NCBI GenBank assembly: GCA_000972765.1
Contig: CP011265.1
Coordinates: 992,001 to 1,056,000 of the forward strand
Origin: Verrucomicrobia bacterium IMCC26134
GTDB taxonomy: Bacteria; Verrucomicrobiota; Verrucomicrobiia; Opitutales; Opitutaceae
Length of the DNA stretch: 64,000 nt
Reading direction: 5' to 3'
This document shows positions 33,713 to 46,751 of the stretch, in pieces; position 1 is the first letter of the stretch; each line of letters begins with the position of its first letter. The notes under the pieces were generated by a model. The model was not told the origin of the DNA. It worked only from the letters and a program-made list of their open reading frames with translations, and searched no databases. Both the position numbers and the translations under genes were made by a program.

Positions 33713-34054
33713 ATGAAAGAACAAAAGCAGACAGGAATGAAGCCACCAAGGCACGACGAAGCGTTTCGTCAGCAAGCAGTGCGCATGTGGAAGCAAAGCG
33801 GGAGGTCAGCGGAGCTGACTGCCCGGGAGCTGGGAATCAGTGTGTTTCAGCTCTACGACTGGAATCGGACGGGGCAGCCAGCCCGGGCCGCCGGGCTGGC
33901 TGCCCCGTCCGATAGCAAGGAGGTGTTGCAGGCCGAGAACGAACGACTGCGGCAAGAGCTGGCGAGGATCACCGAGCAGAGGGACATCCTAAAAAAAGCT
34001 GCGGGCATCCTCTCCGAACCATCGCACAGCGGTATGCCCGGATTAAAGCGATGA
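33713..34054 (+). CDS. IS3-family transposase OrfA
   Basis: A 113-residue protein with a helix-turn-helix of the HTH_Tnp_1 type (HDEAFRQQAVRMWKQSGRSA, ELTARELGISVFQLYDW) and a leucine zipper at about residues 75-97 (LRQELARITEQRDILKKAAG). It binds the IS ends and regulates transposition. At 33991-33998 there is A7G in the frame CTA-AAA-AAA-G. A -1 shift there enters the OrfB frame, which stays open through to the OrfB ATG. This is the usual way this family makes the OrfAB transposase. Confidence 0.92.
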   Translation: MKEQKQTGMKPPRHDEAFRQQAVRMWKQSGRSAELTARELGISVFQLYDWNRTGQPARAAGLAAPSDSKEVLQAENERLRQELARITEQRDILKKAAGILSEPSHSGMPGLKR

Positions 34055-34887
34055 GCCACGAACATCCGACCAAAACGATGTGCGAGGTGCTGGAAGTCTC
34101 GCGCAGTGGTTACTACCAATGGCAAAGCGCGCGGGCCTCGGCTCGTGCACTTAAAACCAAAGCGATCAGGGCAAAGATCGCCAGGGTGCACGAGGACTCG
34201 CGTGGCACATATGGGAGTCCGCGGGTGACGGTGGCCCTGCACAAGCAAGGCGAAGCGGTAGGCCGCAACCGCGTGGCCCGCTTGATGAAAGAAGCCGGAC
34301 TGCACGGTCGACAGGCCCGCCGGTATCGGGTTCGAACCACCGACAGCGCGCACAACGAGCCTATCGCCCCAAACCTGCTGCCAAAGGCAAGCGTCCCCAC
34401 CAAGCCCGACGAAGTGTGGGTCACCGATATCACCTATGTCGAAACCGGCGAAGGCTGGTTATACTTGGCCGGAGTGCTCGACCTTTATAGCCGCCGATTG
34501 ATCGGCTGGGCCATGGGATCGAGCCTGGAGACAGCGCTCCCGCTGGCCGCCCTGCACATGGCCTTGCGAAAACGCCGGCCGGGCGCAGGCCTGCTTCATC
34601 ACTCGGATCGTGGCTGTCAGTATGCCAGCGCAGCCTATCGCTCCACCTTGGCCGGCCACGGTTGCATCGCCTCCATGAGCCGCCGGGGTAACTGTTACGA
34701 CAACGCTACAATGGAGTCGTTCTGGAGCACGCTCAAACATGAGCTGATCTACCGCCGCCGCTTCGCCACCCGCAGCGAAGCCACCACCGCCATCTTCGAC
34801 TACATCGAGAGCTTCTATAACCGAATACGCCTTCACTCGTCCCTCGGCTTTAAAAGCCCCCTCGACTACGAATCCAACCTCAACTAA
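34051..34887 (+). CDS. IS3-family transposase OrfB (DDE integrase-type)
   Basis: 278 residues from the ATG at 34051, which overlaps the OrfA stop (ATGA). The first segment (MCEVLEVSRSGYYQW) and RGTYGSPRVTVAL are typical of HTH_21 plus rve-type OrfB. The catalytic triad is seen as Asp in WVTDITYV, Asp in HHSDRGCQYAS and Glu in NATMESFWSTLK. The frame upstream of the ATG is open back to the A7G slip site at 33991, so the active protein is probably the OrfAB fusion. No frameshift or stop disables it, so the element may be active or recent. Confidence 0.93.
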   Translation: MSHEHPTKTMCEVLEVSRSGYYQWQSARASARALKTKAIRAKIARVHEDSRGTYGSPRVTVALHKQGEAVGRNRVARLMKEAGLHGRQARRYRVRTTDSAHNEPIAPNLLPKASVPTKPDEVWVTDITYVETGEGWLYLAGVLDLYSRRLIGWAMGSSLETALPLAALHMALRKRRPGAGLLHHSDRGCQYASAAYRSTLAGHGCIASMSRRGNCYDNATMESFWSTLKHELIYRRRFATRSEATTAIFDYIESFYNRIRLHSSLGFKSPLDYESNLN

Positions 34888-37872: not shown

Positions 37873-37928
37873 GGGGGGTAAAGGCGTGGGCGGGAGCGGA
37901 AGCTAACTTCGTGGACGACGGCTGGCTG
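37873..37928. repeat. Copy A of an imperfect direct repeat
   Basis: This stretch, which spans the NRPS stop, resembles 46752-46808 in the same orientation. Shared runs are TAAAGG, GTGGG and ACTTCGTGGA; by eye about three quarters of some 54 positions match. The two copies border the block between lysC and thrC. Confidence 0.4.
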
Positions 37929-40900
37929 AAAAATGGGTTTCGAGCGCGGCACGGAGAGCGACCGCAGTGTGGGCGACTTGCGGTCGTTTTAGCACAGTCA
38001 TATGGTCGCCATCCAACCAATGAATCGTTGGCGCACAACCTGTCCACTGCCGCCAGCCTCCATCCTCGAGATAATCCCTTGCGATGAAATGGGCGGGGTG
38101 AGGTTCTTTCCGCAAATCACCGCGCTCGCGGAACAGGTGGACCGCAACTGGGTGGGTGAACTTCGGCTGATAGCGATGCGACAATTTGATCAGCTCAAAA
38201 GCCAGCGTTTTCCCCGTAGCCCAGTGTGGAAAATTCATTTTTTCACCGGCGGCGACGTGACGAAAAAATTTCGCGGTTACAATCGCCTTGTGAATCCGTT
38301 GCCAGCGATTACCCCGATCCCGTGCCAGCCCTATTGTCCAACTAGGCAACCAACGCAGGGCATGAAGCAATCGTTGAAAGCGAGTAAGCTGGCGCGGCGG
38401 CGGACGCGTGCCCAGCAAGACACAGAACGGATTGAAGCCCGTTTCCTGCGCGTATTGGCGGGCGACTTCAAACGCGAGCATACCGGCCCATGAATAGCCG
38501 ACCAACGCAAACGGGCCGACGGGATGAAATTCGGCGAGCAGTTCCCGCACTTGCCGCGCGGCGGCTTCCATTGAATCCGGAACTCGCTCGAGATGATGCA
38601 ACGCCGGGGACCGAATACCAAACACCGGCTGATCCGGCCCCAGTTCAGCGGCGAGTTCGAAATAAGCGCCGACATCTCCGGTCGCCTCGTAGAGACAAAA
38701 AATCGGCGGGCGAGTGCCGGCTCGATGCAGCGCGAGTATCGGCGTTCGCGCCTCCTCCACGGCCGCCGTCACGGCGCGGCATAACCCAGGTAGCGTTGGC
38801 TCCAGCAAAAAAGTCGAAAGGGCCAGGCGGCGCCCGGTGATTTCCTCCACACCCAGCAATAATTTTACCGCGCCCAGCGAATCACCGCCCAGCTGCTGAA
38901 AGGTTTGGTCCGGTGGCGCCCCCAAACTATCGGGCAATATCCGATACCATAATTCGGTCACAGTGCGATCCAGGCTATCGTCAGGCGGCGCAGCTTGCAC
39001 CGTCGTGTTTTGCACCGCTCGCGTCCGGCCAGCAGCGTCAAGCGCGGCACGATCCACTTTGCCTTGGGGCGTGAGCGGCAGCGCAGGATGCGTGATGAAA
39101 ATTCCGGGAACCATGTAACCTGGCAAACGTGGTTTCAGGAACTGCCGCAGTTCTGCGGGCAAAATATCTTCCGCCAGATTGGGAGCCACGACGTGAGCAA
39201 TCACGCCACTGACTGAGGCTGAAGCGGCGGGCGTGTCGGAATCAATCAGCGGACGGCAGCAAGCTTCGCGCACCTCGGGATGTTGCCGCAGCACCGCTTC
39301 AATTTCGCCTAATTCCACCCGCTGACCGCGCACTTGCACTTGGTCGTCGTTGCGACCAAGGAATTCCAAAGAGCCATCCGGCGACCACCGGACACGATCG
39401 CCAGTGCGATACATCCGCGCGTCATCCTTGCCCGCAAAGGGATCAGGAAAAAACCGTTCGGCGGTCAATTGCGGCCGATGAAGATAGCCACGTGCCACCT
39501 GCTGACCGCCGAGAAATAATTCGCCAGCAACGCCAACCGCGACGGGCTTGAATTCATCACTCAAAACATACGCACGAACATTCGCGATGGGACGGCCAAT
39601 GCTGGGTTTGCGGGAATTAACCTTGTCCGTCGGCAAAACGGTTTCCCAAGTGGCGTCCACGGTGTTTTCCGTCGGGCCATACGAATTGATGAGCGCGAAC
39701 GGAAGCTCCGGCGGCGGATAAGTCTGGAGCGCTTCGCCTCCGACACACAGAAAACGCAGGGCAACTTTCCGGGGCCAGGGACGGGCAAATAGCAATTCAC
39801 CCAACGCCGTCGGCACAAACGAGAACGTCGCCCCTTCGGTGGCCAGCCAGGCGATCAATCGATCGGGCTCGCCCAACAGCGTGCGGTCCGGAACCAACGC
39901 GGTCCCGCCAGCACACAGAATGGGCCACAGGTCGGCGACCGAAGCGTCAAACGTGGGATTCGCCAGCAAGCTGACGCGATCCGCGGCGGTCAGATTCAAG
40001 CGCTCGTGATAGAAGCAGACCAAATTGGTGAGCGAATGATGCTCGATCTCCACGCCCTTGGGCTGCCCGGTGGAACCCGATGTGTAGATGACATAAGCGC
40101 GTCGCCGGGGATTGCTCGGCACGGCGGGCGTCGCTTCCGCTAGTGCGTCCTGGGAAACCTCTTCGTCCTCGACGGCAACAGACCAGCCAGACCAATCCGT
40201 GAGCGTGGGAATAAATTCTTTGTCCATCAACGCGAACCTCGCCCCGCTGTCTTGGAGCAGAAATTCCTGCCGGGCGATTGGCAGATTGACGTCCAGCGGC
40301 AGGTAGGAACCACCGGCTTTCAGCACCGCCAGCGCGCTCACGACGAAGGCGATAGATCGCTCAAAGCGCAACGCCACGACGGCTTCAGGCAACAATCCGG
40401 CGCGCAACAGTTGGTGCGCGAGGCGATTGGCGCGCTGGTCGAGCGCCGCGTAACTGATCACTTTTGCGCCAGACTTCACCGCCGGAGCCTCCGGGCGCTG
40501 GCGAACTTGGTCGTGGAAAAAGTCCACGACTGATTGATCCAGCGGATAGGGTCGCGCCGTTTGATTCCACGCGTCGATAACCTGGTGACGTTCAGCCGCA
40601 GCCAACTCGGGTGGCGGAAGCTTTGCCGACGGCAACTGATCGGCCAACCACTGCGAAAGCATGGCCGAACGATCCGTCTTGCCCGTGCGCGTGCGGGGAA
40701 ATTGCGGCAGCGCGTGAAATTCCGCCGGAGTAAAAATCTGCGGAATATGGTCGGCCAACCAGCCGCGCAACGCGGCCTCGGTTGGCGCTGTCCCGTGGGG
40801 CACAAACCACGCCAGCAACCGATCATCGTGCAGCACGAGGGCGGCATCAGCCACGGCGGGATGACGGCGCAGCGCCGCTTCGATTTCTCCCAGCTCCACC

Positions 40901-43533
40901 CGCACGCCACGCACTTTGACTTGGAAGTCCAGTCGTCCCAGATACTCCATCCGCCCGTCCGCGAGCCAACGAACGCGGTCACCGGTGCGATACATGGTGG
41001 CGTTGGGCGCCGCCGTGAAAGGGTCGGGCAGGTATTTTTCAGCGGTCAGTTCCGGTCGATTCCAGTAGCCCAATCCCACGCCCGCACCCCCAAGGTAAAG
41101 TTCGCCAGGCACGCCTACCGGCACCGGCTGCTGTTTCTCATTCAATATGTAGCCACGGCAATTGGCGACCAGCGCGCCAATCGAGGGGCGGTTGCCGTCG
41201 GCCTTGGATTCCTCGCAGTTGAACCACACGGAACATTCGGTGGGACCACAGACATTAAAGACCCGGCGACCGGGAGACCAACCGGTCAACAAATCTGCGG
41301 TGAGCGGTTCGCCGGCGGAGATCAATACGCTCAACACCGGTGCCGGCGGCACGGGCGTGGAGCGCATCACGGTGGGCGTGAGCAGCGAAACCGAAATGCG
41401 TTGCACCACGAGCATCTGCGTGAGCGCAGGGCCGGGACGCAATTGTTCCGAAGGCACCACGACCAACGTGGCCCCTGTTTGAAAAGCCGCGACAAAATCA
41501 AATAACGACGCGTCGAAGCTCGTCGCCGATGATTGCAAAACCCGATCGGCTGGCCCGATGGCGAAGGTGCGGCGTAATTCCAACGCAAAATTATCCAACC
41601 CAACCCGACTGTTTATGGCTGCTTTGGGCACGCCCGTGGAGCCGCTGGTGTAAAGTAAGTTGGCCGCTGCTTCTGCGGGTGGCTCGGAAGTGAGCGGACC
41701 TTTTTCCAGCTCGGCTAACGCAGCGCGTTCCGCCGGAGCATCTACGCACAACAAGCGAATGTTGCCTACGGGCAGATGGGGAAGCAGTTCGGTCTGCGTG
41801 ACCAAAACGGAGGGCTGCAAATCGTCAAAATAGAATTCCAACCGTTCACGCGGATTAGCGGGATCCACCGGCGCATAAACCAAACCCGCTTTCAAGGCCG
41901 CCAGCCAGACGATAGGTTGTTCGACTGAGCGATCTAGAACAACGAGCACCCGTTCGCCAGGCCGGCAGAATTGCAGCAGCCGCCGGGCGAGTTGATTTGC
42001 TCGGGCATGCAACTCGGCGTAGGTGATGGCCTCATTTTTGAATTCGACCGCCCGAGCTTGCGGCGTCGCAGCGGCTTGCGATTCCAGCACACGTTGAAGG
42101 GGCGGCGCGGCGGCGGTCAGAGGTCCCTGCCATGCTTCGGAAATTCGATGCTGATCTTCGGGCGGCAGCATGTTCAGTTCGCCAAGCCGTGCCTCACCGG
42201 GCACGATCGCCAGCGACTCCAGCACTGTTTGCAGATGCCGCAGGACAGTCTGAATTTGAGCGGCTGGATGGCGATGCGGAGAATAAACGAACGCCAACGT
42301 CAGCACCTTGCCGGCATACGCCACCAGAATCGGAAAATCGGTCTTTTCAATGAGCTGTAAACGTTGCCCAGTGGTCGGCAAATGCTCCATTGCGTCGCGA
42401 TTCTCGAACATCAGACCAGTGCGGAACAATACGGTCGAGCGCGCCAGACCGCACCAGCGGCGGATCTGTTCGGTCGAAGCGTATTCGCCCACACGTGCCT
42501 CAAGTTGCTGTGTCCGCAGTCCGCGCAACCACTCGCCCACGGATTGTTCAGCTGAAACCTCCACCCGAAAGGGAATCGTATTGATGAACACTCCGACGCG
42601 TTCATCGGGTGCCGTGCTTGTCCAGTGCCGCCCGGAACGGACCACGCCAAAAACAACTTCCTCCACGGCTTGATAACGCGCCAACGCCAACGCCCAAGCG
42701 GCTTGAACCAAATTGTTCAATGTTACTGCGTGCCTTTGCGCGGCCGCCCGCAACTGCTCCGTCAGCTCGGCGGAAAGCACCAATGTTTCCATCGTGGGCG
42801 GAACGTCATCCGCTCCTGAATCCGGCGAGGTGGCAAGCGAGGGCAGATCCGTCGCCGCCTGGAAACCGCGCAACGTTTTGCGCCAGTAATCGGCCGCCGC
42901 CTCGGTCGGCGCTGCGTTTAGCCATGCGGGAAATTCACCAAACGAAGACGCAGCGGGTAATGGTTCAGGCACCGTGCCAGCCAGCAACTGGCGATAAACC
43001 GCCGCCACTTCCTGCCACACCAAGGCGTGTGAACGACCATCCAAAAGTCCGTGATGAAACGTCCAGACCGTCGTGACCTCATGATCGTTCCAGGGAAAAA
43101 CGGTGAGACGCCAGAGCGGCGCGCACGCCAGATCGAATCCCTTCGTGCGATCGGTTCTGAGGAAATCTGAAATCAATTGCGCACGTTCTGTCTGTGCAAC
43201 TTCGGCGGTTTTAACCTCTAAAGCGACCGCCACGGTTGCCGCGAACTGTTGCGCCAGCTCGCCGGTTGACTGCCAATTGAAGCTAGCCCGCAACACATCG
43301 TGCCGCGCGGCAACTGATTCCCATGCCTGTTGCCACGCAGACATCGACAATGCTTCACTCCACTCGCAAACCAGTTGTTGAATATAATGACCACCCGCTG
43401 GCTCAACAAGCGAACGCCCCACGACTGCTTGTTGGAGCGGAGTTAATGGAAATATTTTTTGAGTTTGAATCACTATGTCCGCCAGTTGTTCAGCGTTGGT
43501 TGGTTGTTTTTCGGATTGATGACTGACCGGCAT
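37903..43533 (-). CDS. Nonribosomal peptide synthetase, C-A-A-T-TE
   Basis: A 1876-residue multidomain synthetase. Order: condensation domain (about 27-455; active-site HHGLLDG at 160-166); adenylation A1 (about 470-960; LLYTSGSTG at 627-635, YRTGD at 848-852, catalytic Lys in RTGKTD); adenylation A2 (about 990-1500; IYTSGSTGQPKG at 1149-1160, MYRTGDR, Lys in PQGKVD); carrier domain (about 1515-1590; LGGDSLGAVK, Ser 1552 for phosphopantetheine); thioesterase (about 1605-1870; GYSWAG with Ser 1681, His in GDHMTVL). The roughly 50 residues between A1 and A2 contain no carrier and no condensation core, only a C-domain tail-like segment (HQVIDAWNQTARPYPLD), so a T-C pair seems to be missing. The TE position usually occupied by Asp reads LLGT rather than LLDT. 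It starts and ends without other NRPS genes, and no phosphopantetheinyl transferase is visible. It would make a very short peptide or acyl amino acid; the product is unknown. Confidence 0.93.
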   Translation of the reverse strand: MPVSHQSEKQPTNAEQLADIVIQTQKIFPLTPLQQAVVGRSLVEPAGGHYIQQLVCEWSEALSMSAWQQAWESVAARHDVLRASFNWQSTGELAQQFAATVAVALEVKTAEVAQTERAQLISDFLRTDRTKGFDLACAPLWRLTVFPWNDHEVTTVWTFHHGLLDGRSHALVWQEVAAVYRQLLAGTVPEPLPAASSFGEFPAWLNAAPTEAAADYWRKTLRGFQAATDLPSLATSPDSGADDVPPTMETLVLSAELTEQLRAAAQRHAVTLNNLVQAAWALALARYQAVEEVVFGVVRSGRHWTSTAPDERVGVFINTIPFRVEVSAEQSVGEWLRGLRTQQLEARVGEYASTEQIRRWCGLARSTVLFRTGLMFENRDAMEHLPTTGQRLQLIEKTDFPILVAYAGKVLTLAFVYSPHRHPAAQIQTVLRHLQTVLESLAIVPGEARLGELNMLPPEDQHRISEAWQGPLTAAAPPLQRVLESQAAATPQARAVEFKNEAITYAELHARANQLARRLLQFCRPGERVLVVLDRSVEQPIVWLAALKAGLVYAPVDPANPRERLEFYFDDLQPSVLVTQTELLPHLPVGNIRLLCVDAPAERAALAELEKGPLTSEPPAEAAANLLYTSGSTGVPKAAINSRVGLDNFALELRRTFAIGPADRVLQSSATSFDASLFDFVAAFQTGATLVVVPSEQLRPGPALTQMLVVQRISVSLLTPTVMRSTPVPPAPVLSVLISAGEPLTADLLTGWSPGRRVFNVCGPTECSVWFNCEESKADGNRPSIGALVANCRGYILNEKQQPVPVGVPGELYLGGAGVGLGYWNRPELTAEKYLPDPFTAAPNATMYRTGDRVRWLADGRMEYLGRLDFQVKVRGVRVELGEIEAALRRHPAVADAALVLHDDRLLAWFVPHGTAPTEAALRGWLADHIPQIFTPAEFHALPQFPRTRTGKTDRSAMLSQWLADQLPSAKLPPPELAAAERHQVIDAWNQTARPYPLDQSVVDFFHDQVRQRPEAPAVKSGAKVISYAALDQRANRLAHQLLRAGLLPEAVVALRFERSIAFVVSALAVLKAGGSYLPLDVNLPIARQEFLLQDSGARFALMDKEFIPTLTDWSGWSVAVEDEEVSQDALAEATPAVPSNPRRRAYVIYTSGSTGQPKGVEIEHHSLTNLVCFYHERLNLTAADRVSLLANPTFDASVADLWPILCAGGTALVPDRTLLGEPDRLIAWLATEGATFSFVPTALGELLFARPWPRKVALRFLCVGGEALQTYPPPELPFALINSYGPTENTVDATWETVLPTDKVNSRKPSIGRPIANVRAYVLSDEFKPVAVGVAGELFLGGQQVARGYLHRPQLTAERFFPDPFAGKDDARMYRTGDRVRWSPDGSLEFLGRNDDQVQVRGQRVELGEIEAVLRQHPEVREACCRPLIDSDTPAASASVSGVIAHVVAPNLAEDILPAELRQFLKPRLPGYMVPGIFITHPALPLTPQGKVDRAALDAAGRTRAVQNTTVQAAPPDDSLDRTVTELWYRILPDSLGAPPDQTFQQLGGDSLGAVKLLLGVEEITGRRLALSTFLLEPTLPGLCRAVTAAVEEARTPILALHRAGTRPPIFCLYEATGDVGAYFELAAELGPDQPVFGIRSPALHHLERVPDSMEAAARQVRELLAEFHPVGPFALVGYSWAGMLAFEVARQYAQETGFNPFCVLLGTRPPPRQLTRFQRLLHALRWLPSWTIGLARDRGNRWQRIHKAIVTAKFFRHVAAGEKMNFPHWATGKTLAFELIKLSHRYQPKFTHPVAVHLFRERGDLRKEPHPAHFIARDYLEDGGWRQWTGCAPTIHWLDGDHMTVLKRPQVAHTAVALRAALETHFSASRRPRS

Positions 43534-43606: not shown

Positions 43607-43798
43607 TCACTTACTGATGCAAAAGGTGCTGAAACTGGAGTCGAGCAAATCTTCCGTCGTCGTTTTGCCCACGATCTCGCCCACGGCGTAGGCGTTGATG
43701 CCCAGATCCATCGCGACCAATTCCGGCGTAGCATCAGCGTGCAACGCATCCGCAGCCTGACGCGTGGTGGCGCGGGCGCGATTGAGGGCATCCTGATT
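43607..43798 (-). pseudogene. mnmE: 3' remnant of mnmE (tRNA modification GTPase)
   Basis: This 64-codon frame ends exactly like MnmE: a helical stretch (NQDALNRARATTRQAADALH), then LVAMDLGINAYAVGEIVGKT, TTEDLLDSSFSTF and the terminal C-I-S-K, matching the family's FCIGK end with its catalytic Cys. The rest of the gene (about 400 residues with the GTPase domain) is absent. Further up, 43799-44072 shows broken frames (for example a frame change near 43795) and no recognisable G motifs. It is therefore a truncated, frameshifted leftover rather than a gene. It lies 74 bases beyond the NRPS start and is followed by the HlyD gene. Confidence 0.8.
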
Positions 43799-44072
43799 TC
43801 CGCTGCGCCCTCGCCGGCCTCGACGAACCCAGCCAGCAACGCACTGCGTTGGTCGTCGAGGCTAGTTTCCGGGATTCCGGCGCCCTCGCCGCTTCGCCTG
43901 CAAACTCCGCCTCCCGGCCCTCGATCACGCCCACAAGCTCCCGATCAAATCTTCTCTTTACACCTTCAGGACGTCCTTCACACACCATGATCCACGCCTG
44001 ACTCTCGCCCGGTGGGCCACCACCGCCAAGGGTAACGAGTCCGGCCCCCAAAAATTGGCCGCGACGTGCCGC

Positions 44073-45164
44073 TCAATCGCGGATCAAGACGTCGACTTGC
44101 TCGCCGGGGCTTAGCTTGAATTCGGGCGGTATGCTTAAGTGGACGCGGAGGCCGAGTTCAGGGGAGCCGGAACGGTTCACAAGGGCGAGGAGCGTCGGCG
44201 AGACGGGTTCGAGGGCGCGGCCGGTTTCGAGCACCGTCGCGGTGCCGGTGGCGCGGGCAAGGCTGCGCGTGCGCACCTCGACTTTGGCGCCGGTCTTTGG
44301 ATTGATCGGTAGCGGCTGGCGCAGAAATCCGACCAGGCGGGCTGACTCCGTGGCGGCGACGGTGACGATGGGTTCACCGGTGGCGACCATCTCGCCGGCG
44401 CGGCGGTGGACGAGCAGAACAAATCCGCTGATCGGCGCGGTGAGGGTGACGGGCCCGAGTTGGGCTTCGGTGAGGCGGAGTTTCTCGTCCTCGACTTTTA
44501 GCGCGGCGGTGAGGGTGTCGGCGGGGGAGCGCGGCGTGGTTTCGGTGTTTTGCGCGGCGAAGCGGTCGGCGTCCGGGGCAAGAGTCGACACGAGTTTCTC
44601 TTGTTCGACCAATTGGGCGGCGAAATTGGCCCGCTGGCTCTTGGTGTTTTCGAAGACTTGGGCCGAGACGAGGTTTTGGGCATGCAGCGGCGTGAGGCGC
44701 GTGAGGTCGGCTTCGGCCTGCTGGACTTGCACGCGGAGGGAGGCGAGCGTGACGCGCTCGCGCATCCAGTCGAGTTGGAGTTGGGCGGCGTCGAGCGCGA
44801 CGCGCTGAGCAGGGAGCACGGGCTCGAGGTTGGCGCGGAGGAGTTCAATCTCCGCACGGATTAGGCCGAGCGAAGCTGCCGTCACTTCCGGGCTCGCCAT
44901 CCGCACCCGGCCAATGACCTGGCCGGCGGTGACGGGTTGAAGCAAGGCGACATCAAGGGAGACGAGGGTGCCGGATTGCACCGCGCGGACATCGCTGCGG
45001 ACGATCTCCGCCTCGGCGACGAGCGTGGGGGCGGATGCGGACTGGTTCCAGAGCACCGCGGCGCCAAACACGCCGAGCGCGAAGACGATGAAGGGGAATC
45101 TTTCCGTGAAGAATGCATTCCTGCGACGGCGCGCCGGAATGGGAATGGGAGGGAGTGCGCTCAT
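44073..45164 (-). CDS. HlyD-type membrane-fusion (periplasmic adaptor) protein
   Basis: A 363-residue protein with one N-terminal membrane helix (FPFIVFALGVFGAAVLW), then a barrel/lipoyl half (VSLDVALLQPVTAGQVIGRV). A long helical hairpin follows (about 105-215, LRANLEPVLPAQRVALDAAQ to QLVEQEKLVST), then the second lipoyl half (LTAPISGFVLLVHRRAGEMV) and a C-terminal beta domain. Such proteins connect inner-membrane transporters to an outer-membrane channel or act in export. There is no ABC or RND partner and no TolC here. Its ATG overlaps the stop of the DUF4956 gene by ATGA, so it is the third gene of the VTC/DUF4956 operon. Confidence 0.82.
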   Translation of the reverse strand: MSALPPIPIPARRRRNAFFTERFPFIVFALGVFGAAVLWNQSASAPTLVAEAEIVRSDVRAVQSGTLVSLDVALLQPVTAGQVIGRVRMASPEVTAASLGLIRAEIELLRANLEPVLPAQRVALDAAQLQLDWMRERVTLASLRVQVQQAEADLTRLTPLHAQNLVSAQVFENTKSQRANFAAQLVEQEKLVSTLAPDADRFAAQNTETTPRSPADTLTAALKVEDEKLRLTEAQLGPVTLTAPISGFVLLVHRRAGEMVATGEPIVTVAATESARLVGFLRQPLPINPKTGAKVEVRTRSLARATGTATVLETGRALEPVSPTLLALVNRSGSPELGLRVHLSIPPEFKLSPGEQVDVLIRD

Positions 45165-45847
45165 ACTTCTGATTCGCTGTCAGCACGGACGCCGTTGACG
45201 TTTTTGGCGCCGGGGAGCGCGTTAAGTTCAAGGAGGAGTTCATCCGCACGATCGGGGTCGCGCAGCAGGAGGTGATACGAGAGATCGGCGCCTGTGCCGC
45301 TGGAGGAAACGCGCTGGTTCGCGCAGCGGGCTTTGCGGCTGTGGCGCTCGAGGAGATCGCGGAGGGCGGGGAGTTCGGCGGACGGGCGCGCCCATTGGAG
45401 ATTGAGGATGAAGTCGTAGTGGTGGCGGCGGCCAAACGCCGTGAGCCACGCGTAGAGAAAGATCGCGACGAGCACACCGCCGCCGAGGACGGCGGTCGTG
45501 AATTTCTGCGTGCCGCAGGCCATGCCGACGACGATCGAGGCGAGGACGTAGGCGGTGTCGAGTGTGTCGCGGAGGATGTTGCGGAAGCGGACGACGGCGA
45601 AGACCGCCATAAGGCCGAAGGCGGTGACGAGGCTATTGGCTAGGACCATCATCACGAGTGCGACGGAGACTGGTAGCACAACCAGCGAGACGACGAAGGC
45701 GCGCGAGTAGGAAAGGCCGTTGTGTGTGGCCATGTAGACCCAGGCGATGAGCTTCCCGATCAGAAACGACAGGAGCAGGGAGAGCCCGAGCACCGAGAGG
45801 GGCGTGGGCGCGCTGGCGTAGTCGCCGTGAAGGAAGGAATCGAGCAT
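45161..45847 (-). CDS. DUF4956 membrane protein
   Basis: About 228 residues from the ATG at 45847, which begins the domain sensibly (MLDSFLHGDYASAPTPLSVL). Four or so membrane helices are followed by a soluble C-terminal part. The segment VFAVVRFRNILRDTLDTAYV is the conserved core of the DUF4956 family. DUF4956 genes are commonly adjacent to VTC-type polyphosphate polymerase genes and to CotH-type proteins, as here for VTC. The function is unknown. It lies 4 bases after the VTC gene and overlaps the HlyD gene, so tight coupling is expected. Confidence 0.85.
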   Translation of the reverse strand: MLDSFLHGDYASAPTPLSVLGLSLLLSFLIGKLIAWVYMATHNGLSYSRAFVVSLVVLPVSVALVMMVLANSLVTAFGLMAVFAVVRFRNILRDTLDTAYVLASIVVGMACGTQKFTTAVLGGGVLVAIFLYAWLTAFGRRHHYDFILNLQWARPSAELPALRDLLERHSRKARCANQRVSSSGTGADLSYHLLLRDPDRADELLLELNALPGAKNVNGVRADSESEV

Positions 45848-45851
45848 GGGA

Positions 45852-46673
45852 TTAGAGGGCGGGAACCGGGAGCCCCACGGGGCTATTCGCACGGCTGAGA
45901 TCGCCGTCGAAGGGACTGCGACCCGCCGCTTCGGCAAACCTGACCGGACCGAGGACGTTGACGCTGTCGACGTATTTGGCGGCGCCGCCCTGGACGAGGT
46001 TGAAGGTGCGCACCATGACGGCGAGCCAGTCGGGGAAGCGGTTGGTGAATTTTATCTCGAGGATCACATTATTTCCAAACGGGTGGGCGGGCGCGCTAAA
46101 CGTGGTGTCGAGGCGAGGGCCGAGTTCGGGTTCGCAGAGGACCGAGCGGTCCATGGTGACGCGGACGGCGTTATGGCCCTCGCTGGTCCAGGCTTCGCGC
46201 TCGTAGGCGACGCGAGCGCGGGGGCGGGCGCCGAGCCGGCGGATGAGTTCGCAGAATTTCTGGAGGGCCGCGAGGTCCTTGGCGCCGGGCCGGACTAGGT
46301 CGTGGGTGGTGGGCCAGGCGCCGCCGAGGAGGGCCGGGACGTGGCTGCGGATGACGGCGGCGCGTTGCTTGTAGATGCAGCGATCGACGCGGCGTTTGAT
46401 TTCGAGGAAGACGGGAGAGTCGGGCCTATCGTCGTAATAACGCGCGCGAAGTTTGTAGCGGTCTCGGTCGCCGTTGATTGTGGCGCGGTAGGTGTGGAGG
46501 TCGCCGGAATCGAGGTAGAGGCTGTGGACCGGGTAGGCCGGGAAGTCGGGGTCGGCGGCGGAGTCGTCGGGCGCGAGGTAGGGGCGGACGAAATGTCGCG
46601 CGGCCACGGCAGTAGCCTCCGGCACTTGGAACTTCAGTTCGAAGCGCTGAGTTTGCATACGATCATTTTCCAT
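45852..46673 (-). CDS. VTC-domain polyphosphate polymerase-like protein
   Basis: About 273 residues from the ATG at 46673; a GTG at 46682 and an ATG at 46658 are alternatives. It matches the VTC domain, the tunnel-fold catalytic part of the eukaryotic vacuolar transporter chaperone that makes polyphosphate from ATP. Conserved basic and acidic strands are visible: RFELKFQVPE, VHSLYLDSGDLHTYRATING, RYKLRARYYDD, VFLEIKRRVDRCIYKQRA, RPRARVAYEREAW and VILEIKFTNRFPDWL. It is the first gene of a three-gene operon with DUF4956 and HlyD genes. The actual product (polyphosphate or another polymer) is inference from the family. Confidence 0.86.
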   Translation of the reverse strand: MENDRMQTQRFELKFQVPEATAVAARHFVRPYLAPDDSAADPDFPAYPVHSLYLDSGDLHTYRATINGDRDRYKLRARYYDDRPDSPVFLEIKRRVDRCIYKQRAAVIRSHVPALLGGAWPTTHDLVRPGAKDLAALQKFCELIRRLGARPRARVAYEREAWTSEGHNAVRVTMDRSVLCEPELGPRLDTTFSAPAHPFGNNVILEIKFTNRFPDWLAVMVRTFNLVQGGAAKYVDSVNVLGPVRFAEAAGRSPFDGDLSRANSPVGLPVPAL

Positions 46674-46751
46674 GGCGGACACGGGGTGGTGAGGGAGGAA
46701 TGGGAGCAGAGTTACAGACAGGAAACTGGATTTTTCCGTGGATCGAGACGG

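Follow-up and report, generated by a model that had tools for sequence, protein, structure and literature searches.

Can a nonribosomal peptide synthetase (NRPS) work with two adenylation (A) domains side by side and a single carrier (T) domain, or is a protein of this kind the product of an accident? The question is raised by one gene in a stretch of 64,000 nucleotides from Verrucomicrobia bacterium IMCC26134, a member of the Opitutaceae (contig CP011265.1, positions 992,001 to 1,056,000); the whole of this stretch is referred to here as the window. The encoded synthetase has a condensation (C) domain, two A domains in succession (A1 and A2), one T domain and a thioesterase (TE) domain. Assembly-line enzymes are read and engineered largely as if every carrier had one A domain of its own, a rule from which a conserved family with two intact-looking A domains and a single T domain departs. 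Judging by the sequences of six such proteins, the layout of this synthetase looks like a real and conserved one, not an accident or a broken gene.

Domain Layout and the A1-A2 Junction

The synthetase is encoded by a single uninterrupted open reading frame (ORF) of 1876 amino acids (aa), without internal stop, on the minus strand of the window (37903..43533), coordinates which an earlier note on this DNA had given correctly and without the strand. The host genome is one contig of 4,001,000 bases, and the synthetase holds the sole Condensation match in these 4.0 Mb. The order C-A-A-T-TE claimed in that note was confirmed by Pfam and by motifs, all features lying on the minus strand. The C domain (residues 25-463, 42145..43461) carries FHHGLLDGRSH at 159-169, with the motif HHGLLDG at 160. 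Two AMP-binding stretches (best 1006-1351) and two AMP-binding_C stretches (best 883-952) were matched by Pfam: A1 (residues 481-957, 40663..42093) has GKTDR at 951, with its catalytic lysine at K952, just where it had been expected, and A2 (residues 1006-1498, 39040..40518) has TSGSTG at 1148 and its lysine at K1492. The sole carrier of the protein is the PP-binding match at residues 1524-1588 (38770..38964), with Ser1552 in the motif GGDSL at 1549. The TE domain (residues 1606-1870, 37924..38718) gives a partial Thioesterase match at 1610-1713, covering profile positions 2-106 of 226; the serine and histidine motifs are nonetheless present (Ser1681, in GYSWAG at 1679, and His1844).

The junction between the two A domains (residues 958-1005, 40519..40662) had been described as a gap of roughly 50 residues with only a segment resembling the tail of a C domain, and this description holds: 54 residues separate K952 from the start of A2 at 1006 (46 to 58 in five relatives), and their content is a motif of the C domain tail and C-A linker (WNxT, here WNQT), with nothing carrier-like. 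No Pfam match to PP-binding or Condensation was found between residues 940 and 1010. An artefact of the assembly, a deletion or frameshift at about 40.5 kb, was also considered and rejected, as the gene is one uninterrupted ORF and the same junction recurs in five further genomes, which for practical purposes rules out a deletion.

A Conserved Family in Verrucomicrobiota

Relatives were sought with a probe of 285-290 residues spanning the A1-A2 junction, a stretch expected to align unbroken over its whole length only where two A domains truly stand in tandem. The genome sets searched overlap, mostly few candidates were scored per genome, and the following counts are therefore not rates: in a set of 387 phylum genomes, 41 showed a junction match of some kind, which was near-full-length only in the window genome and in the genome designated G424; 240 genomes of the class of G424 gave full-stretch matches in G424 and G652, and 384 genomes of the window's own class gave them in the window, G826, G793 and G848; a set of 386 phylum genomes centred on G424 returned G424 alone, and the six genomes of the family of G652 returned G652 alone. 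The six proteins come from six different families and are 1775-1876 aa long; the start assigned to the G848 protein is uncertain. The five relatives, all in Verrucomicrobiota (1775-1875 aa), have the order C-A-A-T-TE, a similar junction length and an overall identity of 31-52%. Pfam detected two AMP-binding and two AMP-binding_C stretches, one PP-binding domain and one TE domain in the same order in all six proteins, so that the rule of one A domain per T domain is broken in each of them; HHxxxDG in the C domain, the carrier motif GGDS/GGHS and the TE serine and histidine are likewise kept in 6/6.

The earlier note had called for a search for homologues within the same family, and none turned up there: only the window protein itself matched end to end in whole-protein searches of 15 genomes of the genus and of 250 genomes of the family (two candidates scored per genome in the latter), and the relatives sit in other families. 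Two readings had been put forward in the earlier note, a distinct architecture and the loss of a T-C pair by recombination. The former is strengthened by six proteins from six families with both A domains intact by motif, whereas a recent recombination accident finds no such support and T-C loss is left as the weaker option for the origin of the layout.

Twelve loci in all were flagged as A-A tandems, of which L049 and L068 (on one shared contig) and L055 are real. The other nine (L085, L086, L109, L115, L120, L124, L125, L141, and L143) were judged by hand to be single A domains split by inserts and were set aside because one of the two pieces had at most 132 residues. A plasmid collection held no contiguous A1-A2 junction among the best 15 of 1295 records; these 15 showed two probe pieces spanning about 1.5 kb, probably one A domain in reverse order.

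The Two Adenylation Domains

In all six proteins both A domains keep the checked motif residues, namely T/S/G..G..K of A3, the glutamate of A5, the aspartate of A7, the arginine, hinge aspartate, glycine and arginine of A8 and the lysine of A10, and by motif both are intact-looking catalysts. Identities for A1 and A2 are 59% and 60% between the window and G652, 59% and 54% between the window and G826, and 54% and 60% between G793 and G848; on these figures A1 is about as conserved as A2. Both observations bear on whether A1 might be dispensable or structural, as in AulA, which stays active without its A1 (PMC5238615). The adenylate-binding aspartate is lost in A1 of AulA, but its counterpart D852 (equivalent to Asp413 by motif) is kept in 6/6 together with the other checked residues, and this, along with the nearly equal conservation of the two domains, makes a dispensable A1 quite improbable.

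The ten specificity positions were set by motif anchors with PheA numbering. In A1 they are hydrophobic and variable between members (DAFLIAVVWK in the window), and in A2 they are nearly fixed (DAASCGSVDK in the window, with DAATLGTVDK and the like in other members). When compared to reference codes, A1 resembles those of aliphatic residues and A2 those of polar residues, which is to be read as a hint only. Taken with the motifs, this suggests that both domains most likely adenylate amino acids, a hydrophobic one in A1 and a polar one in A2.

Origin of the Layout

In trees inferred with IQ-TREE the A1 domains of the six proteins form a clade of their own (100/99), as do their C domains (100/99), while the six A2 domains fell inside a clade of nine rows (97/99) with L066, L073 and L122. 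The first two of these are A domains of formyltransferase-A-T-TE proteins and the third is a Prevotella row; L122 and the A2 of G424 were flagged for long branches. In the loci L066, L067 and L073, from metagenome-assembled genomes labelled Sphingomonadales, Nitrosomonadales and Sinobacteraceae, a formyltransferase-like part precedes the A2-like A domain. By Pfam, L073 consists of Formyl_trans_N and _C, A, T and TE; T-TE is seen in L066 too, and L067 ends at a contig edge.

The ancestry of the C domain was approached by recruiting modules through C similarity alone and then scoring the neighbouring A domain against A1 and A2. The two C domains nearest to the family from outside adjoin A domains whose scores favour A2 over A1 by 152 and 141 bits, and in a larger module set, from a collection enriched for A2, the preference for A2 is 141-160 bits in the four closest modules of related genomes. 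The rows closest to the window C domain by tree path outside the family are the same C-A-T proteins, which is no proof in an unrooted tree. Because the two nearest outside C domains pair with an A2-type A domain, an insertion is preferred over T-C loss: the pairing of C with A2 looks original, and A1 was more probably inserted between the C domain and its first partner, A2, than brought next to that C domain by the loss of a T-C pair. Not all neighbours agree. The A domains adjoining two of the next-nearest C domains lean towards A1, by 58 and 89 bits, and of the 23 modules recruited by C similarity whose A domain was scored, 18 lean towards A2 and five towards A1, most leanings being weak. 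The mixed distant neighbours and the unrooted C tree weaken the insertion reading.

The same data bear on the proposal that the synthetase is a relic of a two-module enzyme after an in-frame loss of T-C, either non-functional or making a truncated product. The C-A linker motif retained in the junction is what such a deletion should leave behind, and some C neighbours (L172, L193) are followed by A1-like A domains; nonetheless, six families sharing the layout with intact ORFs, together with the pairing of the two nearest C domains, render a relic very improbable.

In two related genomes, G249 and G037 (L148, L149, L154), the C-A-T protein with the nearest C domain is the first NRPS protein of an NRPS cluster. 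In G249 the first C-A-T protein is followed by another C-A-T, then by a protein of 2066 aa ending in C-A-T, and then by C-A-T-TE. In G084 and G041 antisense ORFs masked part of the NRPS genes, and statements on the order of cluster genes are therefore confined to G249 and G037.

Another reading is that A1 and A2 are alternative loaders of one T domain and that a starter-type C domain acylates either residue, giving an N-acyl amino acid or a mixture. The C domain is N-terminal in 6/6 and its closest outside counterparts are the N-terminal C domains of these single-module C-A-T proteins, which come first in their multi-gene clusters. The wider C clade, on the other hand, is not an established starter group and includes C domains that follow a second C-like (presumably epimerization) domain and have LLDGW-type motifs, and the conservation of two distinct codes across six families suggests that there are two specific monomers. 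Alternative loading is accordingly regarded as improbable.

With regard to the release end, T-TE occurs in three dissimilar types, shared by the window and G826 (67% identity in T and 43% in TE), by G652 and G424, and by G793 and G848, and C-A-A is common to all six despite these differing types. From this comparison it seems that the T-TE end has been exchanged and the C-A-A core kept. The nearest T-TE outside the family is found in L073 and L066.

Carrier Domain, Release and Proposed Mechanism

If the synthetase is to use both A domains, either both of them charge one carrier or a partner in trans is hidden. A profile built from 251 T domains (E-values up to 0.01) detected no carrier besides the gene's own around the six genes, in the 64 kb window, about 37 kb of G652, 30 kb of G826 and three contigs of 6-9.5 kb. 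Five other PP-binding matches occur elsewhere in the window genome. The surroundings of four of them, judged by eye, are ketosynthase-like or sugar-type genes, and the fifth is an ORF of 93 aa; the PP-binding ORFs of the genome include an 86-aa carrier adjoining an AMP-ligase-like gene.

These observations have to be weighed against a model in which A1 charges a free-standing carrier that docks on the C domain as donor, while A2 charges the T domain in cis. Direct precedent is available in Pseudomonas fluorescens, where a second A domain on the ObiF chain serves the free carrier ObiD (PMC6668435). A C domain that comes first in its protein must be supplied with a donor by something other than its own module, and candidate carriers exist in the genome, the 86-aa one included. 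The stretches of 6 to 64 kb scanned near the six genes nevertheless hold no such carrier, the four matches mentioned lie in ketosynthase-like or sugar-type settings, and in obafluorin synthesis the extra A domain is C-terminal, after the TE and not between C and A (PMC6668435). A carrier in trans, the main rival reading, is somewhat unlikely.

A self-contained enzyme with two A domains and one T domain is favoured because no other carrier was found in the stretches scanned near the six genes and four of the five other PP-binding matches of the genome stand beside ketosynthase-like or sugar-type genes. From the observed architecture we infer, beyond the insertion of A1, the following course from charging onwards. 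Both A1 and A2 would adenylate amino acids and charge the single T domain, the C domain would link the residue supplied by A1, carried on one copy of the enzyme, to the residue supplied by A2 and carried on a second copy, and the TE would release a dipeptide-sized product, possibly cyclised. This explanation of the conserved C-A1-A2-T-TE synthetase is advanced tentatively, at rather less than even confidence. In a strictly self-contained form, the A1-charged T domain of one copy, or the A1 adenylate directly, would be the donor for the A2-charged T domain of another, and one protein of about 1800-1900 residues would make a defined hetero-dipeptide without a second carrier; this is a possible scheme, held with more reserve still.

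Several points weigh against such a mechanism. The T domain is tethered to A2 in the sequence and might not reach A1; the predicted structure of A1-A2-T, made from two sequences, had a mean pLDDT (predicted local distance difference test) of only 35.6 and was not used. The PP-binding score of the window T domain is the weakest of the six (28.7 bits, versus 32.2 in G826 and 49.5-56.6 in the others), and the genome does encode the five further PP-binding matches described above. Activation is a further concern, as the window genome, though it encodes an NRPS, has one ACPS-family match only, in an ORF of 148 aa, and a search of it without positive control gave no match to the longer transferase of G652; the window T domain is therefore only presumed to be activated. 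In addition, no enzyme is known to us in which two A domains load one T domain successively to make a single product. The end of the G652 synthetase gene, by contrast, is overlapped by an ORF of the same strand for a phosphopantetheinyl transferase recognised by PF01648, an overlap which suggests that the carrier of that protein is in use.

The TE domain departs from the usual pattern at one position. The acidic residue after strand 5 is replaced by glycine in the window (G1708) and in G826 and is aspartate in the other four members. A glutamate at the end of the next strand, E1803 in the window on its predicted structure, is common to G826, L066 and L073 and may complete the catalytic triad. 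The TE model has a pLDDT of 79.7, and its fold matches are ordinary TE folds with template modelling (TM) scores of about 0.5-0.6. A similar shift, with glycine on strand 5 and aspartate on strand 6, is described for the TE of ObiF (PMC6668435).

The synthetase is one gene encoding a protein of roughly 200 kDa, which makes the proposal directly testable in Escherichia coli. Automatic product predictors might omit A1 or label the gene broken.

Genomic Surroundings

Just upstream of the synthetase lies an ORF of 84 aa (43607-43861, minus strand) whose end matches the C terminus of MnmE (PF12631, 1e-10, profile positions 153-211 of 211) and which looks, by this match, like a remnant of the 3' end of mnmE; no second copy was found in the 64-kb window. 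The 3' ends of mnmE (trmE) are known integration sites of genomic islands, and the gene may therefore have been acquired on such an island, although its GC content of 0.596 is close to the 0.608 of the window. A transposase-like ORF with HTH_21 and rve domains lies about 3 kb downstream (34051-34887, plus strand), with homoserine dehydrogenase-like and aspartate kinase-like ORFs, named by eye, between it and the synthetase. Upstream, HlyD-like, DUF4956 and VTC-domain genes stand in a row (44073-46682, minus strand).

Comparison with Known Systems

Consecutive A domains have been called very rare, with AulA preceded only by PyrG (PMC5238615). AulA, from the auriculamide pathway of Herpetosiphon aurantiacus, has the order A1-A2-KR-PCP, where KR is a ketoreductase and PCP a peptidyl carrier protein, and its A1 is degenerate and dispensable (PMC5238615). 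The likeness to AulA and to PyrG of pyridomycin is that a single protein has two A domains in succession, which in AulA go with one carrier; AulA differs in having a KR and no listed C or TE domain, whereas the synthetase described here is C-A-A-T-TE with both A domains intact by motif. No KR match was found in the window protein at E-values up to 1, A2 ending near residue 1498 and T starting at 1524.

In ObiF of P. fluorescens the order is C-A-PCP-TE-MLP-AAr, with an MbtH-like protein (MLP) domain and a C-terminal A domain that activates an aryl acid and serves ObiD (PMC6668435). The two systems share one C, one PCP and one TE domain and two A domains per chain, and the ObiF1 TE also has glycine at the usual aspartate position; the extra A domain is C-terminal to the TE in ObiF, and here it stands between C and A2, with no free carrier found in the stretches scanned nearby. 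The window protein gave no MbtH match at E-values up to 1.

The structure 4zxh (PDB) was among the sequence matches of the window protein and among the fold matches of its TE. It belongs to AB3403, a single-module C-A-T-TE enzyme; both are stand-alone synthetases ending in T-TE, and AB3403 differs in having one A domain only. Closest in sequence are the C-A-T proteins L020, L021, L024 and L029 and the formyltransferase-A-T-TE proteins L066 and L073, with the nearest C domains and some of the nearest A2 domains, all of them without A1.

No C-A-A-T-TE enzyme was found in the open-access full-text literature, where the AulA paper was the sole relevant report (PMC5238615), and an A-domain review has no occurrence of "two A domains", "consecutive" or "in trans" (PMC11253843). 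Tandem A domains are thus already on record, and a C-A-A-T-TE synthetase with two intact-looking A domains looks like an undescribed type among them.

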